Positions 13,314 through 55,851 of a DNA stretch of 64,000 nucleotides are shown here, piece by piece. The stretch covers positions 5,662,001 through 5,726,000 of the forward strand of contig NZ_CP019431.1 of NCBI RefSeq assembly GCF_009866765.1. Direction: 5' to 3'. The translations under genes were made by a program, and so were the position numbers. The DNA is from Pseudomonas sp. S35 (GTDB lineage: Bacteria > Pseudomonadota > Gammaproteobacteria > Pseudomonadales > Pseudomonadaceae). The notes beneath the pieces are model-generated. The model searched no databases and was not told the DNA's origin. It was given only the letters and a program-made list of their open reading frames with translations. The first letter of the stretch is position 1. Every line of letters begins with the position of its first letter.

Positions 13314-13707
13314 GGGGCCGTTTAGGATTCGACGCCGGTCGCGAAACTTTAGGTGCATGCCGAGTTGGTAACAGAACTCGTAAATCCACTGTTGCAACTA
13401 CTTATAGTTGCCAATGACGCTAACCACGGCCAGGTATCCATCGCTGCGTAAGCAGCCTTAGACCTGAGCTTCTGGTACCTTCGGGTCCAGCAATCACTAG
13501 GGGATGTCTGTAAACCCAACGTGATTGTCATATAGAACAGAATCGCCGTGCAGTACGTTGTGGACGAAGCGGCTAAAACTTACACAACTCGCCCAAAGCA
13601 CCCTGCCCTTCGGGTCGCTGAGGGTTAACTTAATAGAAACGGCTACGCATGTAGTACCGACAGCGGAGTACTGGCGGACGGGGGTTCAAATCCCCCCGGC
13701 TCCACCA
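13314..13707 (+). ncRNA. ssrA: Transfer-messenger RNA (tmRNA, SsrA)
   Basis: Rescues stalled ribosomes with SmpB (6689-7171). The 5' end GGGGCCGTTTAGGATTCGAC and 3' end GGTTCAAATCCCCCCGGCTCCACCA form the tRNA-Ala-like acceptor and T arm with encoded CCA. The resume codon GCC is at 13410 after TAGTT, and the tag reading frame runs to TAA at 13449-13451, giving ANDANHGQVSIAA. The tag keeps the AND start and AA end but has Ile instead of Leu in the terminal LAA degron and is 13 rather than 10 residues long. The 3' end is the attachment site of the downstream island, and the gene itself is intact. Confidence 0.97.
13681..13707 (+). other. attL of the genomic island (3' end of ssrA)
   Basis: The T-arm and acceptor 3' end of ssrA (GGGTTCAAATCCCCCC... 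to CCACCA) is the usual attachment site for P4-type integrases. The integrase gene begins 183 bp downstream, and a degenerate match (14 of 17 positions) is found at 25503-25519. The exact crossover cannot be set from one sequence. Confidence 0.7.
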
Positions 13708-13718
13708 CTTAATCATCT

Positions 13719-13744
13719 AAAGACGTCCAAGGGCGTCTTTTTTT
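13719..13744 (+). terminator. Rho-independent terminator of ssrA
   Basis: Stem AAAGACGTCC / GGGCGTCTTT with a short loop and a run of T residues, starting 12 bases after the tmRNA CCA. It lies on the island side of the junction, so the element carries its own ssrA terminator. Confidence 0.85.
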
Positions 13745-13821
13745 GTGCCTGAAATCCAGCAAATACAGGGGATTCAGGTCCAACGGGGTCCGATGGTATC
13801 TGAGCACATCCTACAATTCGT

Positions 13822-13869
13822 GTATTCCACGTGGTATTCCAAGCCCACGACTGCTATTTTTTGGAATAC
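13822..13869. repeat. Putative integrase arm-type sites, left end
   Basis: GTATTCCA at 13822-13829 and 13834-13841 (12-bp period), and inverted TGGAATAC at 13862-13869, between the ssrA 3' end and the integrase ATG. The same pair with the same period and one inverted copy recur at the right end (25312-25450), as expected of integrase or AlpA/Xis sites flanking attL and attR. Confidence 0.65.
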
Positions 13870-13889
13870 ATGCAGTATCGGAGATTCTC

Positions 13890-15134
13890 ATGGGTGCCCA
13901 AGCCACTCGACTTTCAGACGTCAAAGTCAAAGCAGCGAAACCAAAGGAAAAAGACTACATCCTCACTGATGGCGACGGCCTCCAGATGAGAGTGAGGGCC
14001 AATGGCTCAAAGCTCTGGAATTTTAACTACATTCACCCAGCCACCAAGAAGCGGATCAATATGGGCCTTGGTACGTTTCCGGAGGTGAGTTTGGCTCAAG
14101 CCAGGAAACGGACGGTAGAGGCAAGGGAGCTGGTGGCGCAAGGAATTGATCCGAAAGCGAAGCGTGACGAGGATCGGCAAACGTTAAGAGCGACTACGGA
14201 ACATACCTTTAAAAACGTAGCCACCGCTTGGTTCGAGCTCAAGAAAGACTCGGTTACTACTGCTTATGCTGAAGACATCTGGCGCTCGCTCACGCTGCAC
14301 GTTTTTCCCGACTTGGCCGCTACCCCAATCTCAGCGATCACTGCTCCGGCGGTTATCAAACTGCTCAGACCGCTTGAAACCAAAGGCAGTCTTGAGACCG
14401 TGAAGCGACTGAGCCAGCGTCTTAACGAGATCATGACTTATGGCGTGAATTCCGGCTTGATTCACTCGAATCCACTGAGCGGAATTCGCTCTGTCTTCAA
14501 GAAACCCAAGAAGACGAACATGGCAGCACTTGCGCCAAACGAACTCAATGAGCTAATGGTGACGGTTGCCAACGCCAGTATCAAAAGGACCACACGCTGC
14601 TTGATTGAGTGGCAACTTCACACCATGACTCGCCCTGCAGAAGCAGCCACCGCACGATGGGCAGATATCGATATCGGCAAGAAAATCTGGACGATACCGC
14701 CTGAACGGATGAAAAAGCGCCGGACCCACATCATCCCACTCACAGAACAAGCTTTGGGACTTCTAGAGGCTATAAAGCCCCTTAGCGGGCACCGCGAACA
14801 TGTTTTCCCGGCGGATCGCAATCCCCGTACTCATTGCAACAGCCAAACAGCCAATATGGCTCTGAAGCGCATGGGTTTCGAAGGCCGCTTGGTTAGCCAC
14901 GGCATGCGCTCAATGGCCAGTACCATCCTCAACGAACACGGCTGGGATCCTGAGCTAATCGAGGTTGCCCTGGCTCACGTGGACAAGGACGAGGTGCGTA
15001 GCGCCTATAATCGGGCAGATTACATAGAGCGCCGAAGGCCAATGATGAAATGGTGGAGCGAGCATATCCAGGAAGCTGCTACCGGGAGCCTTTCTATGTC
15101 CGCGATCAATGACAGCGGGGGTGTAGTCCGCTAA
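13890..15134 (+). CDS. int: P4-type tyrosine integrase
   Basis: Site-specific recombinase that would insert and excise the island at ssrA. The 414-residue product starts MGAQATRLSDVKVKAAKPKEK (ATG 13890); a longer in-frame extension back towards ssrA lacks conservation and would cross the arm-type sites. It has the P4-integrase N-terminal DUF4102 domain (DGDGLQMRVRANGSKLW), a SAM-like core-binding domain, and the catalytic domain. Catalytic residues visible are R in HTMTRPAEA, K in the beta-hairpin near MKKRRTHIIPL, H-x-x-R in SHGMRS, H in LALAHVDKD-like ALAHVDKDEV, and nucleophile Y in RSAYNRADY. It appears intact. Paralogous C-terminal fragments lie at 15172 and 25521. Confidence 0.95.
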   Translation: MGAQATRLSDVKVKAAKPKEKDYILTDGDGLQMRVRANGSKLWNFNYIHPATKKRINMGLGTFPEVSLAQARKRTVEARELVAQGIDPKAKRDEDRQTLRATTEHTFKNVATAWFELKKDSVTTAYAEDIWRSLTLHVFPDLAATPISAITAPAVIKLLRPLETKGSLETVKRLSQRLNEIMTYGVNSGLIHSNPLSGIRSVFKKPKKTNMAALAPNELNELMVTVANASIKRTTRCLIEWQLHTMTRPAEAATARWADIDIGKKIWTIPPERMKKRRTHIIPLTEQALGLLEAIKPLSGHREHVFPADRNPRTHCNSQTANMALKRMGFEGRLVSHGMRSMASTILNEHGWDPELIEVALAHVDKDEVRSAYNRADYIERRRPMMKWWSEHIQEAATGSLSMSAINDSGGVVR

Positions 15135-15171: not shown

Positions 15172-15390
15172 CAAATCACCAGGCACGATTTCCGGTCTTC
15201 CTTTCGTGACTGGCCGGGTGAATGCCCCCAGCATCCTCGCGAGATTTGCGAGATGGCACTGGCGCATGATGAACGCGATCAGACTGAAGGGGCATACTCT
15301 CGTTCAGACTTTCTTGATAACCGCCGACTGCTCATGAATGATTGGGCAGCTTTCCTCAATCCAACGTTCAGCAGTAATCTCGAAGTCTGA
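15172..15390 (+). pseudogene. Integrase C-terminal remnant (different subfamily)
   Basis: About 72 codons that read as the extreme C-terminus of a P4-type integrase: HDFRSSFRDW (the H-x-x-R box), then EMALAHDERDQTEGAYSRSDFLDNRRLLMNDWAAF with the catalytic H/W position and nucleophile Y. Everything upstream of the H-x-x-R box is missing. It is clearly not a copy of the intact integrase, since the spacing and residues differ, so it comes from another element. It lies 37 bp after the intact integrase stop, in the same orientation. It is unlikely to be functional. Confidence 0.8.
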
Positions 15391-18456: not shown

Positions 18457-18535
18457 TATTCATCTCGCTTGCATATTACGCACCGCTGATATCCCAGCAG
18501 CGTTGGCGCTCGCCTGTCAAACAAGGAAAAACCTA

Positions 18536-19504
18536 ATGGCACATCTAATCGAACACATGGCTTATGTCGGTGAAACGCCATGGCATGGGCTCGGATCCGT
18601 ACTTTCACCCAAACAACCTATTGAGGTCTGGCAGAAAGAAGCCGGTATGAACTGGCGCATAGAAGACAGTCCGGTCCATTTCAAGGCCAACACGGTAGGT
18701 AACCTGGGATCAATTTATACATTCCCAGAACAGAAGGTTCTTTACCGTTCTGACACCAAAGCAGCACTTTCAGTAGTCTCACAGCGCTACCAAATAGTGC
18801 AGCCTCGCGATGTGCTGGAATTTTACCGCGACCTCACTGAGGTCTCCGGGTATGAGCTGGAAACTGCGGGAGTGTTGAAAGGAGGTCGTAAGTTCTGGGC
18901 TTTGGCGCGGACAGGGCAAACCGCAACGTTGGCGGGTAATGATGAAGTTAATGGTTATTTGCTACTGGCCACCTCGTGCGACGGAACGTTAGCTACCACC
19001 GCCACACCCACCACCGTTCGAGTCGTCTGCAACAACACACTGACTATTGCCCTGGATGGGGCAAGCCGCGCTATCAAGGTTCCGCACAGTACTCGGTTTG
19101 ATCCACAGGCGGTAAAGAAGCAGCTGGGGATCGCGGTATCACAGTGGGACGAATTCATGCATCGAATGCACATGCTTGCAGAGCGCAGGGTGCAGTGGCC
19201 GGAAGCAATGAGTTTCTTCCTCAGCGTGCTGTGCGACACCCCTGCTAACAGCCCCATTCCTGAAGTACTACCGAACGAAAGAGCACTACGTAAAGTACAA
19301 AGCCTGTATGAAGGACAAGGCCGAGGCTCAACCTTGCAGTCTGCTAAAGGCACCGCATGGGGACTGCTCAACGCCGTAACCGAATATGTCGACCACGAGC
19401 GGCGGGCAAGGAGCTCTGAGTACCGGATGGACTCGGCATGGTTTGGACAAGGTGCAGTCATGAAGCAGAGGGCACTGGATGCGGCTCTACGCCTCGCGGC
19501 CTGA
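18536..19504 (+). CDS. DUF932 phage/plasmid-like protein
   Basis: 322 residues of the DUF932 family (phage/plasmid-related protein TIGR03299), frequent on plasmids, prophages and islands and of unknown function. Start MAHLIEHMAYVGETPWHGLG; the WHGLG box and the later RYQIVQPRDVLEFY are family hallmarks. The C-terminal part includes the AKGTAWGLLNAVTEYVDHERRAR segment expected for the family. It is soluble with no signal peptide. It is likely a single-gene unit, since nothing follows for 165 bp except the convergent XRE gene. Confidence 0.9.
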   Translation: MAHLIEHMAYVGETPWHGLGSVLSPKQPIEVWQKEAGMNWRIEDSPVHFKANTVGNLGSIYTFPEQKVLYRSDTKAALSVVSQRYQIVQPRDVLEFYRDLTEVSGYELETAGVLKGGRKFWALARTGQTATLAGNDEVNGYLLLATSCDGTLATTATPTTVRVVCNNTLTIALDGASRAIKVPHSTRFDPQAVKKQLGIAVSQWDEFMHRMHMLAERRVQWPEAMSFFLSVLCDTPANSPIPEVLPNERALRKVQSLYEGQGRGSTLQSAKGTAWGLLNAVTEYVDHERRARSSEYRMDSAWFGQGAVMKQRALDAALRLAA

Positions 19505-19668: not shown

Positions 19669-19914
19669 TCACAGTCCTGCGTCGATGAGTAAATCTGACG
19701 GTTTGCAGTGCAAAGCAGTCGCGATCCGAAGGATATTCAAAAAGGTAACGTTCCTCTCCCCTCGCTCTATTTTCCCCATGTGAGAACGGTCGATCCCGGC
19801 AGCATCCGCCAAGGCTTCTTGCGACAGCGTTTGCCCGAGTCTTCGTGCGCGTACCGCCGCACCAAGCTGTACTAGGTCGCCGTCTTTATCGTGAGTCGCA
19901 GAGATTCTTGCCAT
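19669..19914 (-). CDS. XRE-family (Cro/CI-type) transcriptional regulator
   Basis: 81-residue single-domain helix-turn-helix protein: VQLGAAVRARRLGQTLSQEALADAAGIDRSHMGKIERG is helices 1-3, followed by NILRIATALHCKPSDLL. It is similar to the small Xre regulators that accompany restriction-modification C-proteins and island control circuits. It lies between the DUF932 gene and the 20042 gene, on the opposite strand to both. Its operator may be the region 19915-20041 in front of itself and the divergent 20042 gene. It is not adjacent to the methylases, so a controller role is speculative. Confidence 0.88.
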   Translation of the reverse strand: MARISATHDKDGDLVQLGAAVRARRLGQTLSQEALADAAGIDRSHMGKIERGERNVTFLNILRIATALHCKPSDLLIDAGL

Positions 19915-21381: not shown

Positions 21382-22749
21382 CTATTCAGTAAGAGCAGCC
21401 AATGCTCGCCTACGCTGAAGATAATCTAATTTAGGCAAATGCCCTTTAGGCACTGCCAGCATGCATTTATCATAGGGCAGAAGCTGATCACGTAGCGCGC
21501 CGTCGCTTCCAACTTTTTCCCAATCGATAGAAATAGTAAAGTCGTCCAAAACCATTAAGTATCCTTTCTCGAAAGCTCGGTCCACGAGAAGCGAAAGACA
21601 GATACCATTAGACGGATCCAATCGAATACTTTGATCGACACTCCATGGAACAATATGCGAAGCCACAAGAAAATCTTTATTCTCGATTCCAGTTACAGCG
21701 CATTTAAATCCATAGTTAGTTTTTACTGCTTCTGCAAACGCCCGCTGAGCACTACCCCTGGTTTTAACAGTGGCGTGAGAATCAGCAACTTCATAATTTT
21801 CTTGTTTTATCTGACCTCTAAACTCTTCAACCTCTTCAGCAGAAACCTCTAGAGTCTCAGCCGCCGCGTCGCCTTGCGGGACCATCGGAAATCGTGTCTC
21901 TAGCATCTCGAGAAAAGCACTAGCGGACGCCGCCAGCGTTTCATCAAGCGGCGATAGCTGTAACCATGCGTCATGATTAAGATCAGGATCGAAAAACAAT
22001 CCATAGCCAGGATTTCTGAGGTACGCAGCCAATGCACTAGCAGTCGCAGCATCAAGGGTTTCGATCAAAGAAAGCGGGCTTTCCATTGCAATGAGCCGTG
22101 CAAAAATATCGCTAACTTCTGCATTCGGTGCCACGCCACCGCTTGTGATTGTCGACCACTGAAGCGCTGAGCTTTGCGACGTTTTTGCAGCTAACCTCTG
22201 AATACTCTGCGGAACAAGCTGCATGTCAGCCCAAGCATAACTTGTGCTCGGATTATCCAGATAAGCACGTAATTGCAACGTGCCTGGATCATCCTGCAAT
22301 TTAACTGCTATTAAGTACGGCTGACCCGCTCCACGACTCGCGAGTAATGCAAACTCATTCTCGGCATCGGCTATATCAACGTGGGACGGATCGCCAGGTA
22401 TCGTCTCGGCAGTAGCATCGCTTGTCGCGACGGCCATCTTCCAAACCTGGGGAGCGCCAATACTTGTTTCCCACTTGAGGTGTGGACGATCCGCAGAACG
22501 CAGGACGAGCGCACCTGTAGCAGTCCCTGTTGGCCACTTGTACGTCAGCGCCGCCGAACCGTTCTCGTTTGTCTCTGGAAAGAATCGCTTTACGGCAGCA
22601 ATAAACTCATCCCTTCTCGACAGCTGAATATAGTCTTTCGTATATGTCTTGTTCGCCGCATCACTGCGGCCAAGGCGCCCATACGTTGCGCGATGCGCCG
22701 AGGGCCCGTAATAAATCACAAGCACCCATTCCACTGGCAAAGCAGACAT
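21382..22749 (-). CDS. HNH restriction endonuclease, 455 aa
   Basis: The C-terminal part carries an HNH nuclease domain of the HNH_2 type: CAVTGIENKDF, then ASHIVPW near residue 365 and DPSNGICLSLLVDRAFEKG. The N-terminal 300 residues are a separate domain of unknown fold, probably for DNA recognition. The start ATG directly follows the stop of the upstream Dam-like methylase (TGAATG), a typical translationally coupled restriction-modification arrangement. A second methylase is divergent at 23760. Expected role: cleave unmodified foreign DNA. A modification-dependent nuclease is less likely with two methylases in cis. Confidence 0.85.
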   Translation of the reverse strand: MSALPVEWVLVIYYGPSAHRATYGRLGRSDAANKTYTKDYIQLSRRDEFIAAVKRFFPETNENGSAALTYKWPTGTATGALVLRSADRPHLKWETSIGAPQVWKMAVATSDATAETIPGDPSHVDIADAENEFALLASRGAGQPYLIAVKLQDDPGTLQLRAYLDNPSTSYAWADMQLVPQSIQRLAAKTSQSSALQWSTITSGGVAPNAEVSDIFARLIAMESPLSLIETLDAATASALAAYLRNPGYGLFFDPDLNHDAWLQLSPLDETLAASASAFLEMLETRFPMVPQGDAAAETLEVSAEEVEEFRGQIKQENYEVADSHATVKTRGSAQRAFAEAVKTNYGFKCAVTGIENKDFLVASHIVPWSVDQSIRLDPSNGICLSLLVDRAFEKGYLMVLDDFTISIDWEKVGSDGALRDQLLPYDKCMLAVPKGHLPKLDYLQRRRALAALTE

Positions 22750-23655
22750 TCAACCTCTCCCGATGATGATCGCCTCCGGCGACCGATGTGCCTCAACCTC
22801 ACGCCGACTCTGTGCTGCCAGCGAGCGGTGGGTTGTGAATTTTATAATTTCAGTGTCGGGGAATAGCTCGTGTACTGATTCAGTATCGCGATTAGACATA
22901 ATCCATTTCACCCCTCTCCGAGAGAGGTCGGCGCAAATATCTGCAAGCTCAATAAGGTCAACCGCCTCAAAGGTTTTTGCAGTGTATTTGTTAAATTTTG
23001 CAGTCGGCTCTTTTTCAGTGTCCGGCTGAGAAAAAATGGGCAAATATGGGGGGTCAAGATAGACAAAATCACCATCTGAGGCTGTCTTCAGCACCTCTCG
23101 GAAGTCGGCAGCAACGATATCTGCCCGAGACAACACCTTCCCTATCGTCGCCATAGTAGCGTCGTCAAAGCCTTTGAAGCGACGGTCGCCCCAAGGTGCA
23201 TTCATCGCCCCTGTACGAGAATTCTCACGCCATAGGTGGTTCCAAGACACACCGTTTAGGTAAAAGAACCTTGCAGCCCTTTCGATGAGGGAAGTTGGAG
23301 CAGCCGAGCGAACCTCGTAGTAGAATTCCTTGGAGTCATTCTCCATATACCAATCGAGGAGCGGACGCAACGCAGGCTGATGGTCTCGCATTGCAACCCA
23401 AGCCGCTACGAGGTGTTCATTGAGGTCTGCTAGATAGGAGCGACCGGAAACGCGCCCAGCACAAGCCAGGAAGACCGCTCCTCCACCGAGAAATGGCTCG
23501 TAGTAATTTTGAATAGTGTCAGGCACGTGCGGAAGAATGCGAGAAAGCAATCGCGATTTGCCACCTACCCACCTGACGAAAGGCTTGATGGGTGGGTGGG
23601 TGGAGCTGACAAAAGGTAGTTCTACCTGATCCAGTTTTGAAGCACAGTTGTCCAT
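22750..23655 (-). CDS. Dam-like (D12 class) DNA adenine N6-methyltransferase
   Basis: 301-residue alpha-class adenine methylase. Motif X is [12 protein letters not shown] (26-37), motif I is [11 protein letters not shown] (about 52-62) and motif IV is DPPY near residue 199 ([10 protein letters not shown]). The target-recognition region lies between I and IV ([22 protein letters not shown]) as in the Dam/DpnIIA family. The N-terminal 20 residues are an extra extension. It is the first gene of the leftward methylase-HNH pair. The recognition sequence cannot be read from the protein. Confidence 0.93.
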
Positions 23656-23759
23656 TTGATCTCTTTCTTTTCGCCGTTAAATCGGCTAGAGGTATTTTAA
23701 CAGGATGTATGACGTAGGTAACGCATCACCGTCTGATACGTCTCAACTCTGGAGCTTTT

Positions 23760-25076
23760 ATGTCTGAAATTCAGCTTGTTTGGCCGAACAAAGACTTGGC
23801 ACTGCGCGCCTCAGGCGGGAGTAGCTACGAGTGGGTGCAGCCCACAGATCCTCGACTCAGTGAACCTTTTGACGTTCAGGCCCTCACGAACCATCCGATA
23901 GACTCTCAGACGAACGTACTAGCCATTGGCGACGGCCTCGATGTTCTGGAGGCACTGCGCCAACGGACATCAGTCCTCGACGGAGGCATCCGGCTCGTCT
24001 ACATAGACCCGCCTTTCAACACGCAGGTGGATTTTCGACAGTACCGCGACACCATGAATAGGTCGATGTGGCTTAGCATGATGCGCGACCGACTCATTGC
24101 AATTCGCCCACTGCTTGCCAACGACGCGAGTATTTGGGTGCATCTGGATGACAGCGAAGTGCATCGTGCCCGAGCAGTGATGGACGAAGTCTTTGGCGAG
24201 ACTGCATTCGTGACATCTGTTATATGGCAGAAGAAGACTACGCGGGACTCGCGGGCAGCGTTTTCCTCCAATCACGACACCATTCTTGTGTACGCCCCGA
24301 GCGGGCCGAAGAAATGGAAAACCACTAGAAATCTGCTCGTAAAGGACAACGCCCATCTCCTTAATAAGGATGACGACCCGCGAGGTCCATGGGGAGATGC
24401 TCCGTTTACAGCTCCCGGTTTTAGGAGCGCCCAGCAATACGAAATCATTGCGCCATCTGGACGAGCCCTACGTCCGCCACGAGGCCGCTCATGGTACGCC
24501 ACAGAGCCCACTTACCGAGACCTGATAGCAGACGATCGGATTTGGTTCCCTAAAGGCGGTGACGGATCACCACGGCTCAAGCTTTTTGCAAGTCAGTTGC
24601 GCGGCCTTGTCCCATTCACAGTTTGGGGGACATCAGATACCGGCACAAATGACGATGCTAAGCGCCATCTTCTATCAATGTTCCCTGACAAAGAGGTATT
24701 CGACACGCCCAAGCCTGAACTGCTGCTCGAACGCATCATTCATATTGCCTCTAACCCAGGGGAGCTGGTGGTGGACATTTTCGGAGGCAGCGGGACGACG
24801 GCAGCTGTTGCTCACAAAATGGGGCGGCGATGGGTAGTCGCGGAGCGCAATGCCCAAACGGTCTTAGACTTCATGGTTCCTCGACTAACGCACGTAGTTA
24901 ACGGGACAGATCCAGGAGGGGTAACTGACACGACCTCTTGGAGCGGCGGCGGGAGCTTTGAGATGATCCACGTTGCGCCACGGTTCGGCAGATTAAAAGG
25001 AATTGAGAGGCCCGAATATGTAAAGCCATGGCTGGACAATCTACTCCCACCCCATATGCTTTCGACTGCGTCTTGA
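23760..25076 (+). CDS. Beta-class (type III Mod-like) DNA methyltransferase
   Basis: 438 residues with catalytic DPPF (83-86, in VYIDPPFNTQVDF) before the AdoMet-binding FGGSGTT (341-347, followed by AAVAHKMGRRWVVAE). This is the IV-then-I order of beta-class N6-adenine (or N4-cytosine) methylases related to type III Mod. SIWVHLDDSEVHRARAVMDEVFG is a family hallmark. It is shorter than true Mod subunits, and no Res helicase is present. It diverges from the Dam-like methylase across 104 bp, making a three-gene cassette with the HNH nuclease. Two methylases of different classes suggest an asymmetric recognition site with one strand each. Confidence 0.92.
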   Translation: MSEIQLVWPNKDLALRASGGSSYEWVQPTDPRLSEPFDVQALTNHPIDSQTNVLAIGDGLDVLEALRQRTSVLDGGIRLVYIDPPFNTQVDFRQYRDTMNRSMWLSMMRDRLIAIRPLLANDASIWVHLDDSEVHRARAVMDEVFGETAFVTSVIWQKKTTRDSRAAFSSNHDTILVYAPSGPKKWKTTRNLLVKDNAHLLNKDDDPRGPWGDAPFTAPGFRSAQQYEIIAPSGRALRPPRGRSWYATEPTYRDLIADDRIWFPKGGDGSPRLKLFASQLRGLVPFTVWGTSDTGTNDDAKRHLLSMFPDKEVFDTPKPELLLERIIHIASNPGELVVDIFGGSGTTAAVAHKMGRRWVVAERNAQTVLDFMVPRLTHVVNGTDPGGVTDTTSWSGGGSFEMIHVAPRFGRLKGIERPEYVKPWLDNLLPPHMLSTAS

Positions 25077-25520: not shown

Positions 25521-25745
25521 CTCAACGAACATGGATGGGACCCGGAGCTGATTGAAGTTGAAGTCGCACTCGCCCACGTCGACAAAGACGAAGTCAGAAG
25601 CGCGTACAACCGAGCTGACTACATTGAGCGAAGACGCCCAATGATGACTTGGTAGAGCGAGTACATTCAAAAAGCCGCCACCGGCAACTTGTCGGTGACG
25701 GCAATCCAGGGAGAGAGAAGCGAGGAGGTCTTCCCGATACGTTGA
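25521..25745 (+). pseudogene. Integrase C-terminal remnant of an older element
   Basis: Reads LNEHGWDPELIEV, then ALAHVDKDEVRSAYNRADY, ERRRPMMTW, an in-frame TAG, and SEYIQKAATGNLSVTAIQG, closely paralleling the intact integrase C-terminus (14926-15110). It has a 6-base in-frame insertion (EVEV in place of EV) and the TAG replacing a Trp codon. It begins abruptly at the attR-like core, with nothing upstream. It is the truncated tail of a sister integrase that once abutted ssrA before the present island inserted. Confidence 0.85.
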
Positions 25746-25780: not shown

Positions 25781-26065
25781 TTAGATGGCTTGGAGGTCTC
25801 GCAACGCTTCGGGGTGCTGGCTGGCAACTCGCAGCAGAGTCTGTGCCGCACCGGCAGGTCGCCGACGACCCTGCTCCCAATCCTGCAACGTACGCAGGCT
25901 GACTCCCAGCAGCTCTGCAAATGCACTTTGAGATACACCGACTTTAGCCCTGGCCTCAGCCGCAGCCGAAAGCGTCACCTCGGTTGTGCGTGCCGCCTTG
26001 CCAGCTTTCATTTGGCGTACCGAAGCCAACAAGTCTTTCTTAAAGTTCTCCATTTCATGATCCAT
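25781..26065 (-). CDS. higA: HigA-type antitoxin (XRE family)
   Basis: 94-residue antitoxin with helix-turn-helix VGVSQSAFAELLGVSLRTLQDWEQGRRRP at residues 45-73, followed by AAQTLLRVASQHPEAL; the N-terminus is lysine-rich (ENFKKDLLASVRQMKAGKAAR) and would contact the toxin. The start ATG (26063-26065) overlaps the end of the toxin frame by 11 bases, giving the toxin-first order of higBA systems. It is expected to neutralise HigB and repress the operon. The partner toxin is frameshifted, so the antitoxin may now act only as a repressor or be free to evolve. Confidence 0.88.
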   Translation of the reverse strand: MDHEMENFKKDLLASVRQMKAGKAARTTEVTLSAAAEARAKVGVSQSAFAELLGVSLRTLQDWEQGRRRPAGAAQTLLRVASQHPEALRDLQAI

Positions 26066-26382
26066 TACTGATCTCCTCTTTCAATTGATTCAGGAAGGCG
26101 GTCGGCAGGTTGTCGAACTTCGCCTTGGCGTAGGCAATCAACAACCAGATGTGTCCTTCAGAAAGCGCGTTGTAGTAGATAACCCGCGTACCACCACGCT
26201 TACCCATCCCACCACGAGACCAGCGCACCTTACGCAACCCACCGCAACCCACCGCAACCAGGAATCACATCGCCTGCCAACGGGTTCGCAGCTAACCATG
26301 TGATGAATTCCTGGCGCTCGTCATCACGCCATATCGATTCAGCGTAATGCTTGAAAATTTCGGTTTCGATGATCGTATACAT
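26055..26382 (-). pseudogene. higB: HigB/RelE-like toxin, frameshifted by a 10-bp tandem duplication
   Basis: Start MYTIIETEIFKHYAES (ATG 26380-26382), reading RDDERQEFITWLAANPLAGDVIPGCGGLR. The frame then shifts and runs into TAA. In the next frame the family C-terminus continues: KVRWSRGGMGKRGGTRVIYYN, AYAKAKFDNLPTAFLNQL, stop at 26055-26057. The break coincides with a tandem duplication of CGCAACCCAC on the plus strand (about 26233-26252). Removing one 10-bp copy restores GGLRKVRWSRGG exactly. The intact protein would be an RNA-cleaving RelE-superfamily toxin of about 105 residues. As read it is null, but could revert by slippage. Confidence 0.88.
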
Positions 26383-27112
26383 TGCCAAAAACATACGGCA
26401 AGGCCGTATAGGCATGCAAGGTGCGCTGGTCGGATGCTCCCACATTTATCATCCCGGCCCCTCCGATGGCGACTACGGCGACAGCGGCGACAACCCACGA
26501 ATTCACTACCCTGGCGCATGGCGACAAAGCGGCGACAGTCGCCACCATCTGCACCGCCCATAAGCTTTTAAGGCCCAGCCCATGCGCGCTCGCTTCCAAT
26601 TAGGCGCGCAGTCACGCCCAACGTGATCGAAGCCAACTTATCCACAATGCAAATGCGGCAGCCCACGGCCGTCTCTTTCTCCTGGAAAGAGACGGGCGCC
26701 GAAAACACTGCCGCAGCCCTTGCCAGGCAACACATTGCAGCGTTTGTCCCTGTGACAATCGGCGTGACAAACCCCGATGTCACCCGCAGCAGCAATGCAG
26801 GTGATGGTGCCGCAGCCCACGGAATGGACTGCACCTGACTGACAGTCAGGCACGCCCCGGTCATCGCATCACTGCCTGCAACAGACTCTGGATCTCGCGG
26901 CGCTGGTCTCGTCAGCCAACGCAGCCTCCACCCGCCCACCGTTATCGGTGCTCTCAGGAGGCCAGATCATGAGATGCCCAAGCTCCCGGTCGTAAAGAGC
27001 CGCCCGTCCCGCGTAAGTGGACAACCCTCACAGGCTGCAGGGGCCTTGATCCCTGATAACACTCAACAACCGTCGCGGGGAGAGTGAGGGAGAAATTCGA
27101 AGCACCAGGAGA
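26383..27112. other. 730-bp stretch without a supportable gene
   Basis: Several overlapping open frames exist on both strands, but none shows a ribosome site with a recognisable protein. A short MRCPSSRS reading at about 26969 recalls the start of Ogr/Delta zinc-finger phage activators but stops after eight codons. Probably decayed mobile-element sequence. Confidence 0.4.
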
Positions 27113-42853: not shown

Positions 42854-42879
42854 CGCGACTCTAAAGCCAAACTCAATAC

Positions 42880-42975
42880 CAATGTGGGAGGGGGCTTGCC
42901 CCGATAGTGGTGTGTCAGTCACTGAATATTTGGCTGATGCACCGCCATCGGGGGCAAGCCCCCTCCCACATTTGG
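42880..42975. repeat. REP doublet (BIME-like)
   Basis: TGTGGGAGGGGGCTTGCC... at the left and the inverted ...GGCAAGCCCCCTCCCACA at the right, separated by about 40 bp: the typical Pseudomonas fluorescens-group REP pair. It lies in the 388-bp gap 42854-43241; the rest of the gap is AT-rich and holds the promoter of the next gene. Single related hairpins are seen at about 44430-44458, 44803-44830 and 47398-47420. Confidence 0.85.
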
Positions 42976-55730: not shown

Positions 55731-55759
55731 AAATATTCTCCTTGAAGGAACACAAACAA

Positions 55760-55851
55760 GTGTGGGAGGGGGCTTGCCCCCGATAGCAGTGTGTCAGGCA
55801 CTGATGTGTCACTGATACACCGTTATCGGGGGCAAGCCCCCTCCCACAGGG
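55760..55851. repeat. REP doublet between yjiA and ybdD
   Basis: GTGTGGGAGGGGGCTTGCC at the left and inverted GGCAAGCCCCCTCCCACA at the right, enclosing a TGTGTCAGGCACTGATGTGTC spacer. It is the same family as the doublet at 42880-42975. Confidence 0.88.

Follow-up and report, generated by a model that had tools for sequence, protein, structure and literature searches.

Can a nuclease gene that stands beside two unlike adenine methylase genes form a single restriction-modification (R-M) system with both, and if so, what would each methylase do? The question is raised by positions 21,382 to 25,076 of a 64,000-nucleotide stretch of the Pseudomonas sp. S35 genome (assembly GCF_009866765.1, contig NZ_CP019431.1, positions 5,662,001 to 5,726,000), referred to below as the window. 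The locus encodes an HNH endonuclease (HNH), a Dam-family D12 methylase (DAM) and a beta-class methylase (MOD). The trio is a real three-gene R-M system that occurs across distant bacteria. As for the division of labor, our best reading is a mobile, self-contained type II system, type IIS-like, in which the two methylases would share one asymmetric site and take one strand each. We regard this reading as probable and hold it with moderate confidence.

The three-gene unit and its recurrence

The open reading frame (ORF) list and Pfam confirmed the three genes, their families and their positions as given in an earlier note on this DNA. HNH (455 aa, 21382-22749, minus strand) contains an HNH_2 domain (PF13391) at residues 350-399. 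DAM, an alpha-class adenine methylase (301 aa, 22750-23655, minus strand), matches MethyltransfD12 (PF02086) and an NCBIfam model. MOD, an N6 methylase resembling type III Mod (438 aa, 23760-25076, plus strand), matches N6_N4_Mtase (PF01555) and a PADLOC model. All three Pfam matches are above gathering scores, and with one alpha-class and one beta-class enzyme the two methylases are indeed unlike. The junction of DAM and HNH was also read correctly: the stop and start codons abut in TGAATG (22747-22752, minus strand, read from 22752 to 22747). MOD diverges across a 104-bp intergenic region (23656-23759), presumed to hold the promoters of both arms.

The eight window proteins scanned for domains, which included the trio and came from the ORFs of 17.5-29.5 kb, gave no match to a helicase, S subunit or Res, in line with the note. 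A Res helicase-nuclease was found neither among these proteins nor beside the MOD of a Paracoccus plasmid. The eight window proteins and the annotated Paracoccus cassette are free of ATPases and helicases, as type IIS R-M systems are. HNH is single-copy in the 6.6-Mb source genome.

Genome contigs were scanned with a profile from 30 HNH proteins. The best 80 of at least 576 stretches were kept, representing 79 distinct loci: 20 full-length, 8 partial, and 51 that match from residue 209 on only. Partial loci match some of the sequence ahead of residue 300 or, where the copy is truncated, match from that residue onward; the C-terminal-only matches mostly start around residue 300. The partial and C-terminal-only groups were separated by us on match range and identity. 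Methylase partners were then sought by tblastn with the window DAM and MOD (E ≤ 1e-8). Among the loci kept, both methylases were present in the same divergent layout at 19/20 full-length HNH loci, counting one (L004) whose MOD runs off the contig. Both were also present at 2/8 partial loci (L022 and L033). Exactly one methylase was found at 0/28 full-length and partial loci and at 0/51 C-terminal-only loci.

Gene junctions were compared in 23 cassettes, including the window and two with truncated HNH, after the duplicates L002 and L082 were dropped; start codons were chosen by script. The common layout is MOD(<-) DAM(->) HNH(->). DAM and HNH are spaced by -4 to +3 nt in 22/23 cassettes and by +32 in L025, while MOD-DAM spacing ranges from 78 to 174 bp. 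TATCAT occurs in 9/23 divergent intergenic regions, with about 1 expected from shuffles, and by eye CATC lies within ten bases after it in 7/9. This element is probably a promoter and possibly serves self-regulation.

The three proteins diverge together. For the 20 cassettes with all three, the distance-matrix correlations were 0.85 (DAM-MOD), 0.83 (DAM-HNH) and 0.90 (MOD-HNH), and 0/2000 permutations reached the observed values. Recurring layout and correlated protein distances rule out chance neighbours. Together with the absence of any full-length or partial HNH locus with only one methylase, they also uphold the earlier view of a single R-M unit.

These results bear on the explanation that two specificities share one island, HNH and one methylase forming an R-M pair and the other methylase having its own target in an accessory or regulatory role. 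Such an arrangement would suit methylases of different classes and origins and a MOD gene divergent from the DAM-HNH pair. However, both methylases co-diverge with HNH, the recognition regions of both are strongly conserved, and no locus kept has just one of them. We consider two separate specificities quite unlikely.

The spread of the cassette looks like horizontal transfer. In a concatenated tree Nostoc grouped with Devosia (97/94), an actinomycete grouped with a Lysobacteraceae bin (94/98), and phylum labels were no more clustered than shuffled labels. Mobility would then be the cause of the spread, an uncertain reading given that few phyla were sampled, some members are bins, one branch is long and bootstrap is unsettled.

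The cassette is rare. DAM at E ≤ 1e-50 was found in 2/303 class members and in 1/326 genomes of an actinomycete's phylum, samples that include the window's own genome and the centre genome; all three carry the cassette. HNH was found in 2/369 class members sampled and, in two other families, in 4/349 and 2/345 members; these counts include the centre genomes, and some of the hits are probably loci counted already. Among 249 genomes of the source genus, full-length HNH was present only in the window's own, and two others match the HNH region alone. A search of E. coli genomes with a 6.6-kb region of the locus gave no near match. Among 8000 candidates scored, at least 967 are related to HNH itself at E ≤ 0.001. 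The 120 listed share 62-94% identity with it across 99% or more of its length, and a close relative occurs in Pseudomonas frederiksbergensis (79%). In one same-family genome (G162) the cassette DAM is identical to that of Stutzerimonas stutzeri (L010) in the stretches compared.

In searches of mobile elements, HNH matched 17 plasmid records, 1 covering 80% or more, and a Paracoccus plasmid bears the trio in the divergent layout with an HNH identity of 44%. Two phage records matched HNH in the HNH region only, and HNH had no match in IMG/VR viral contigs. DAM identified 2 confirmed viral-contig loci, with the full cassette in 2/2, and a DAM profile recovered the identical two. MOD identified those two contigs plus three distant methylases. 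Identities at one viral locus (L107) equal those at a Fuscovulum locus (L029), and the two may be one genome.

The two methylases

MOD is, on alignment, a shortened type III Mod without the C-terminal part. Its best PADLOC hit is MTase_III (type III Mod, E 6e-97), and its best solved-structure match is the type III Mod 6k0w (E 9e-30). The Mod homology of a type III R-M system is present, and no Res was found at the window and Paracoccus loci covered. From 771 matching plasmid records, of which 25 were listed, five type III-like Mods were examined along with the cassette itself. They are 34-43% identical to MOD and align with it over the core (residues 76-188 and 312-366) and the recognition region (189-311), whose limits we set from family alignments. 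Identity to the window MOD is 43-57% in the core and only 32-41% in the recognition region. MOD has 438 aa against 509-629 aa in these relatives and stops where they continue C-terminally.

A DEAD/DEAH helicase gene follows Mod, in type III layout, in Corynebacterium callunae, Citricoccus, Vibrio parahaemolyticus and Pseudomonas pL21634-2. The fifth relative, from Ligilactobacillus salivarius, is adjoined by further methylases and not by a helicase. On that megaplasmid (L090:1257-9338) three "site-specific DNA-methyltransferase" genes stand in a row, near type I-like S and M genes. The cassette differs from type III R-M in having neither Res or helicase nor the Mod C-terminal part, and in adding a D12 methylase and an HNH nuclease. 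These two recur as partners, so a type III system that lost Res was rejected as a full account.

Type III Mods are described as marking one strand of an asymmetric site and relying on the detection of two opposed sites (PMC12707154). A nuclease without the two-site check needs the second strand marked, which gives a reason for the second methylase.

DAM scores above cut-off as a Dam-family protein in NCBIfam (E 2e-51). It has an NHLWREN recognition loop (M for L in 1/23 cassettes) and a DPPY motif at 201-204. Mean identity in the loop (134-160) is 91% versus 71% elsewhere across 23 sequences. In 21 MODs, the recognition region (mean pairwise identity 80%) is as conserved as the core (81%). Since the recognition regions of both methylases are strongly conserved, recognition specificity is probably fixed across the family.

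Which site DAM might read was approached through E. coli Dam, in which K9 reads base 1, L122 and P134 read pair 3, R124 reads pair 4 and Y119 intercalates (PMC10073500). With K9 mutated to alanine, Dam reportedly methylates other sequences (PMC6567924). By the structure-match alignment, the K9 place is R and the Y119 place is W in 23/23 cassette DAMs. Among comparison D12 proteins, 13 could be read at this place, 12 with K and 1 with V; a fourteenth was unreadable and C-halves were not aligned. Altered first-base reading by DAM would fit an asymmetric ATC-containing target, which is only a hint.

The same protein brings in the main rival, a DpnII-like system. Here both methylases would act on one palindrome (GATC or related), the D12 enzyme for duplex maintenance and the beta enzyme in a special role, for example on single-stranded or incoming DNA. 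Like the cassette, DpnII has a Dam-like methylase, a second adenine methylase and one nuclease, and DpnM (double-stranded DNA) and DpnA (single-stranded DNA) are both reported to act at palindromic GATC (PMC3573125). The earlier note's premise, that two methylases usually mean an asymmetric site, is thus unsafe. Among solved structures DAM matches DpnM best, and three of the four Dam base-pair readers are kept. MOD, in contrast, is not DpnA-like: DpnA structures match only its residues 312-363 (E about 9e-4), far behind the type III Mod. DAM without MOD was found at 0/20 full-length HNH loci kept, which is unexpected if MOD were a dispensable accessory. The uniform R at the K9 place, where the comparison proteins nearly all have K, also argues against a shared palindrome. 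The DpnII nuclease is not known to be of the HNH class. On balance we think the DpnII-like reading unlikely.

With the premise set aside, evidence for asymmetry comes from the kinship of the beta methylase with type III Mods and from the precedent of MhoVII. This Mycoplasma hominis enzyme likewise combines a beta-class and a D12 alpha-class adenine methylase, the D12 enzyme taking CATC and the beta enzyme GATG according to the published description (PMC12898733). In MhoVII, however, the methylases are fused, the beta part is YhdJ-like rather than type III Mod-like, and the reports are from mollicutes; the term HNH is absent from the main text of PMC12898733.

AlwI/SfaNI-type systems also resemble the proposed arrangement, with asymmetric sites and one methylase activity per strand (as described in PMC9799307 and PMC4081073). 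They differ in that the nuclease is of the AlwI family, not HNH, and in that the four methylases found are single proteins of 606-708 aa. D12 N-halves on plasmids and a phage, with AlwI-family or "type IIs" nuclease genes beside them, share 31-36% identity with DAM. The fused AlwI-type C-halves start with TRFMGSK or TRYMGSK and are too divergent from DAM to align.

The nuclease and the proposed mechanism

HNH has a conserved N-terminal part to about residue 200, a variable stretch at about 200-300, and the HNH_2 nuclease domain at about 320-450. Paracoccus-roseobacter-type forms and L025 are without about 40 residues of the variable stretch. When the profile was compared with solved structures, the sole match below E 0.001 was 6yex (VcaM4I), at profile positions 305-403. 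H365, N381, D390 and E394 align with VcaM4I H224, N241, D250 and D254. The first three are kept in 21/21 proteins; at position 394, 20 have E and one has D. The catalytic H, the N and the metal-binding H/D of HNH (beta-beta-alpha-Me) nucleases are thus present. The VcaM4I residues were identified in its structure, and replacing H224, D250 or D254 by alanine is reported to impair the enzyme strongly (PMC7897488). As the residues match those of VcaM4I and are conserved, the lack of a canonical last histidine in HNH does not point to an inactive enzyme.

The N-terminal 290 residues have no credible match in Pfam (best E 0.05), the Protein Data Bank (PDB), PADLOC, NCBIfam or PHROGs. A structural search had been proposed in the earlier note; the N-terminal profile run against the PDB gave nothing better than E 0.011, to designed TIM barrels and within the variable stretch, and "unclassified" stands. 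The same note's single 300-residue domain does not, as the conserved part of about 200 residues is followed by about 100 variable residues that are shorter in some relatives. Library matches of the whole protein, apart from weak Pfam hits, are C-terminal (for example PADLOC PDLC04132 "HNH", E 4e-33, residues 294-449), and so are all PHROGs matches.

The kinship with VcaM4I, a modified-cytosine-dependent EVE-HNH enzyme that is the closest solved structure to the HNH domain, raises the explanation that HNH is a modification-dependent (type IV-like) nuclease merely travelling with two methylases. VcaM4I and TagI (SRA-HNH) combine an N-terminal sensor with a C-terminal HNH domain, a plan that HNH may share, and the catalytic positions of VcaM4I recur in HNH with E for D254. 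HNH also has a weak similarity to the phosphorothioate-dependent family NF045808 (22 of 180 bits, far below cut-off), and Limnoglobus has a lone HNH copy. VcaM4I and TagI differ in acting on modified cytosine, as reported, and in having EVE or SRA domains. No Pfam match to SRA, EVE or SBD was found in any of 17 HNH members, though a fold too distant for sequence methods could escape such a search. Furthermore, HNH abuts DAM and is repeatedly linked to two methylases, as a nuclease that has to be protected against would be, and loci matching only from residue 209 on have either methylase in 0/51 cases. A type IV-like HNH seems very improbable to us.

In the type IIS-like reading we prefer, MOD would methylate adenine in one strand of a fixed site that is probably asymmetric, and DAM would methylate adenine in the opposite strand. 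Each daughter duplex would then retain one mark after replication, allowing re-marking. HNH would bind the unmarked site via its N-terminal part, and its C-terminal HNH domain would cut, probably beside the site. Phage defence would be the expected function. The general type IIS plan is described as an N-terminal recognition domain, a linker and a C-terminal cleavage domain (PMC4081073). The note's type IIS-like proposal agrees with this plan in the unclassified N-terminal part and C-terminal HNH domain, and with the two methylase classes, even though its premise is unsafe. HpyAV/Hin4II, a type IIS system (CCTTC 6/5), would by its published description (PMC2816704) resemble the cassette: it has an HNH catalytic site, recognition and cleavage in separate domains, and two methylase activities for an asymmetric site. 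Its methylases, from the same account, are a fused C5-cytosine and N6-adenine pair, whereas the cassette has two adenine-type enzymes, one alpha and one beta.

Several observations count against this mechanism. The equivalents of Dam L122, P134 and R124 are kept in DAM (L in 22/23 and M in 1/23; P and R in 23/23), R at the K9 place could still read G, and DAM, with DpnM as its best structural match, could therefore be GATC-specific and mark both strands alone. The HNH N-terminal part diverges faster (mean identity 50%, down to 31%) than the methylases. Among partial HNH copies 6/8 are without both methylases, two of which (L023 and L027) are no more than 300 bases from the end of their contig. 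Finally, the sole full-length exception, from Limnoglobus roseus (L013:8001-9356), has neither methylase adjoining. This HNH is full-length with its catalytic residues present. DAM had no hit in that genome at E ≤ 1e-5, an empty result that shows nothing with no known positive as control, and MOD hits are only 29-51% identical (42% for the best by E-value). Decay of the lone copy is not supported: 7 otherwise invariant N-terminal positions are changed, but the intact cassette L014 has 8 such changes.

The fast N-terminal change is odd if this part alone reads an unchanged site, which leaves room for recognition via the methylases. A hybrid class can be imagined in which one asymmetric site is set jointly by a captured type III Mod and a Dam-family methylase. 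The N-terminus of HNH, a new fold in this case, would either read the site or dock onto the methylases as specificity subunits. Conserved methylase recognition regions beside a faster-evolving HNH N-terminus keep the docking version open. We nevertheless judge such a class decidedly unlikely.

The novelty lies not in the principle but in the combination of a type III Mod-like and a Dam-family methylase with an HNH nuclease whose N-terminal part is unrecognised. No published description of the trio was found in a literature search by title and abstract start; REBASE, not covered by it, may list putative members. A Zymomonas paper (PMC8432527) does not concern the trio. The arrangement suggests how a type III Mod can turn into half of a two-strand methylation pair, and it bears on the relationship between type III and type IIS systems. 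A single fixed recognition sequence is predicted family-wide, from Pseudomonas to Nostoc to actinomycetes, so that one methylome could assign all. It also points to an HNH N-terminal part with a probable DNA-binding role, and the cassette could yield a new sequence-specific enzyme.

Genomic surroundings

G+C is 0.44-0.57 at 15-28 kb versus about 0.6 over most of the remaining window. A tmRNA followed by an integrase-like gene (13743-15134, by our own reading without a domain scan) lies at the start of the low-G+C region, the two spanning 13314-15134. Because of the lower G+C and this start, we take the cassette region to be a genomic island. Integrase C-terminal-like fragments lie at 15241-15387 (33% identity over 49 aa) and, past MOD, at 25521-25706 (85% identity over 62 aa). 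The position of the cassette between the integrase and the latter relic suggests serial insertions. A search for direct repeats of the tmRNA end found none.

A helix-turn-helix (HTH) protein (19669-19914, minus strand) matches a PADLOC model of R-M control proteins (E 2e-20). It lies 1.5 kb from HNH with two ORFs between, and in the Paracoccus record an HTH gene is 2.2 kb past HNH, beyond a recombinase. Comparing the two loci, we rejected a control protein as fourth cassette gene on this distance and the intervening ORFs. A DUF932/phage-plasmid-like TIGR03299 protein is encoded near the cassette at 18503-19504 (plus strand). On its other side, an HTH gene at 25781-26065 (minus strand) resembles NadS/MqsA-type antitoxins below curated cut-offs. 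Upstream of it, at about 26060-26400 (minus strand), we read a RelE-like frame, again without a scan, that is seemingly interrupted near a short tandem duplication. Farther off, palindromic repeats of about 100 bp, REP-like in appearance and 84% identical, lie at 42870-42970 and 55749-55848.

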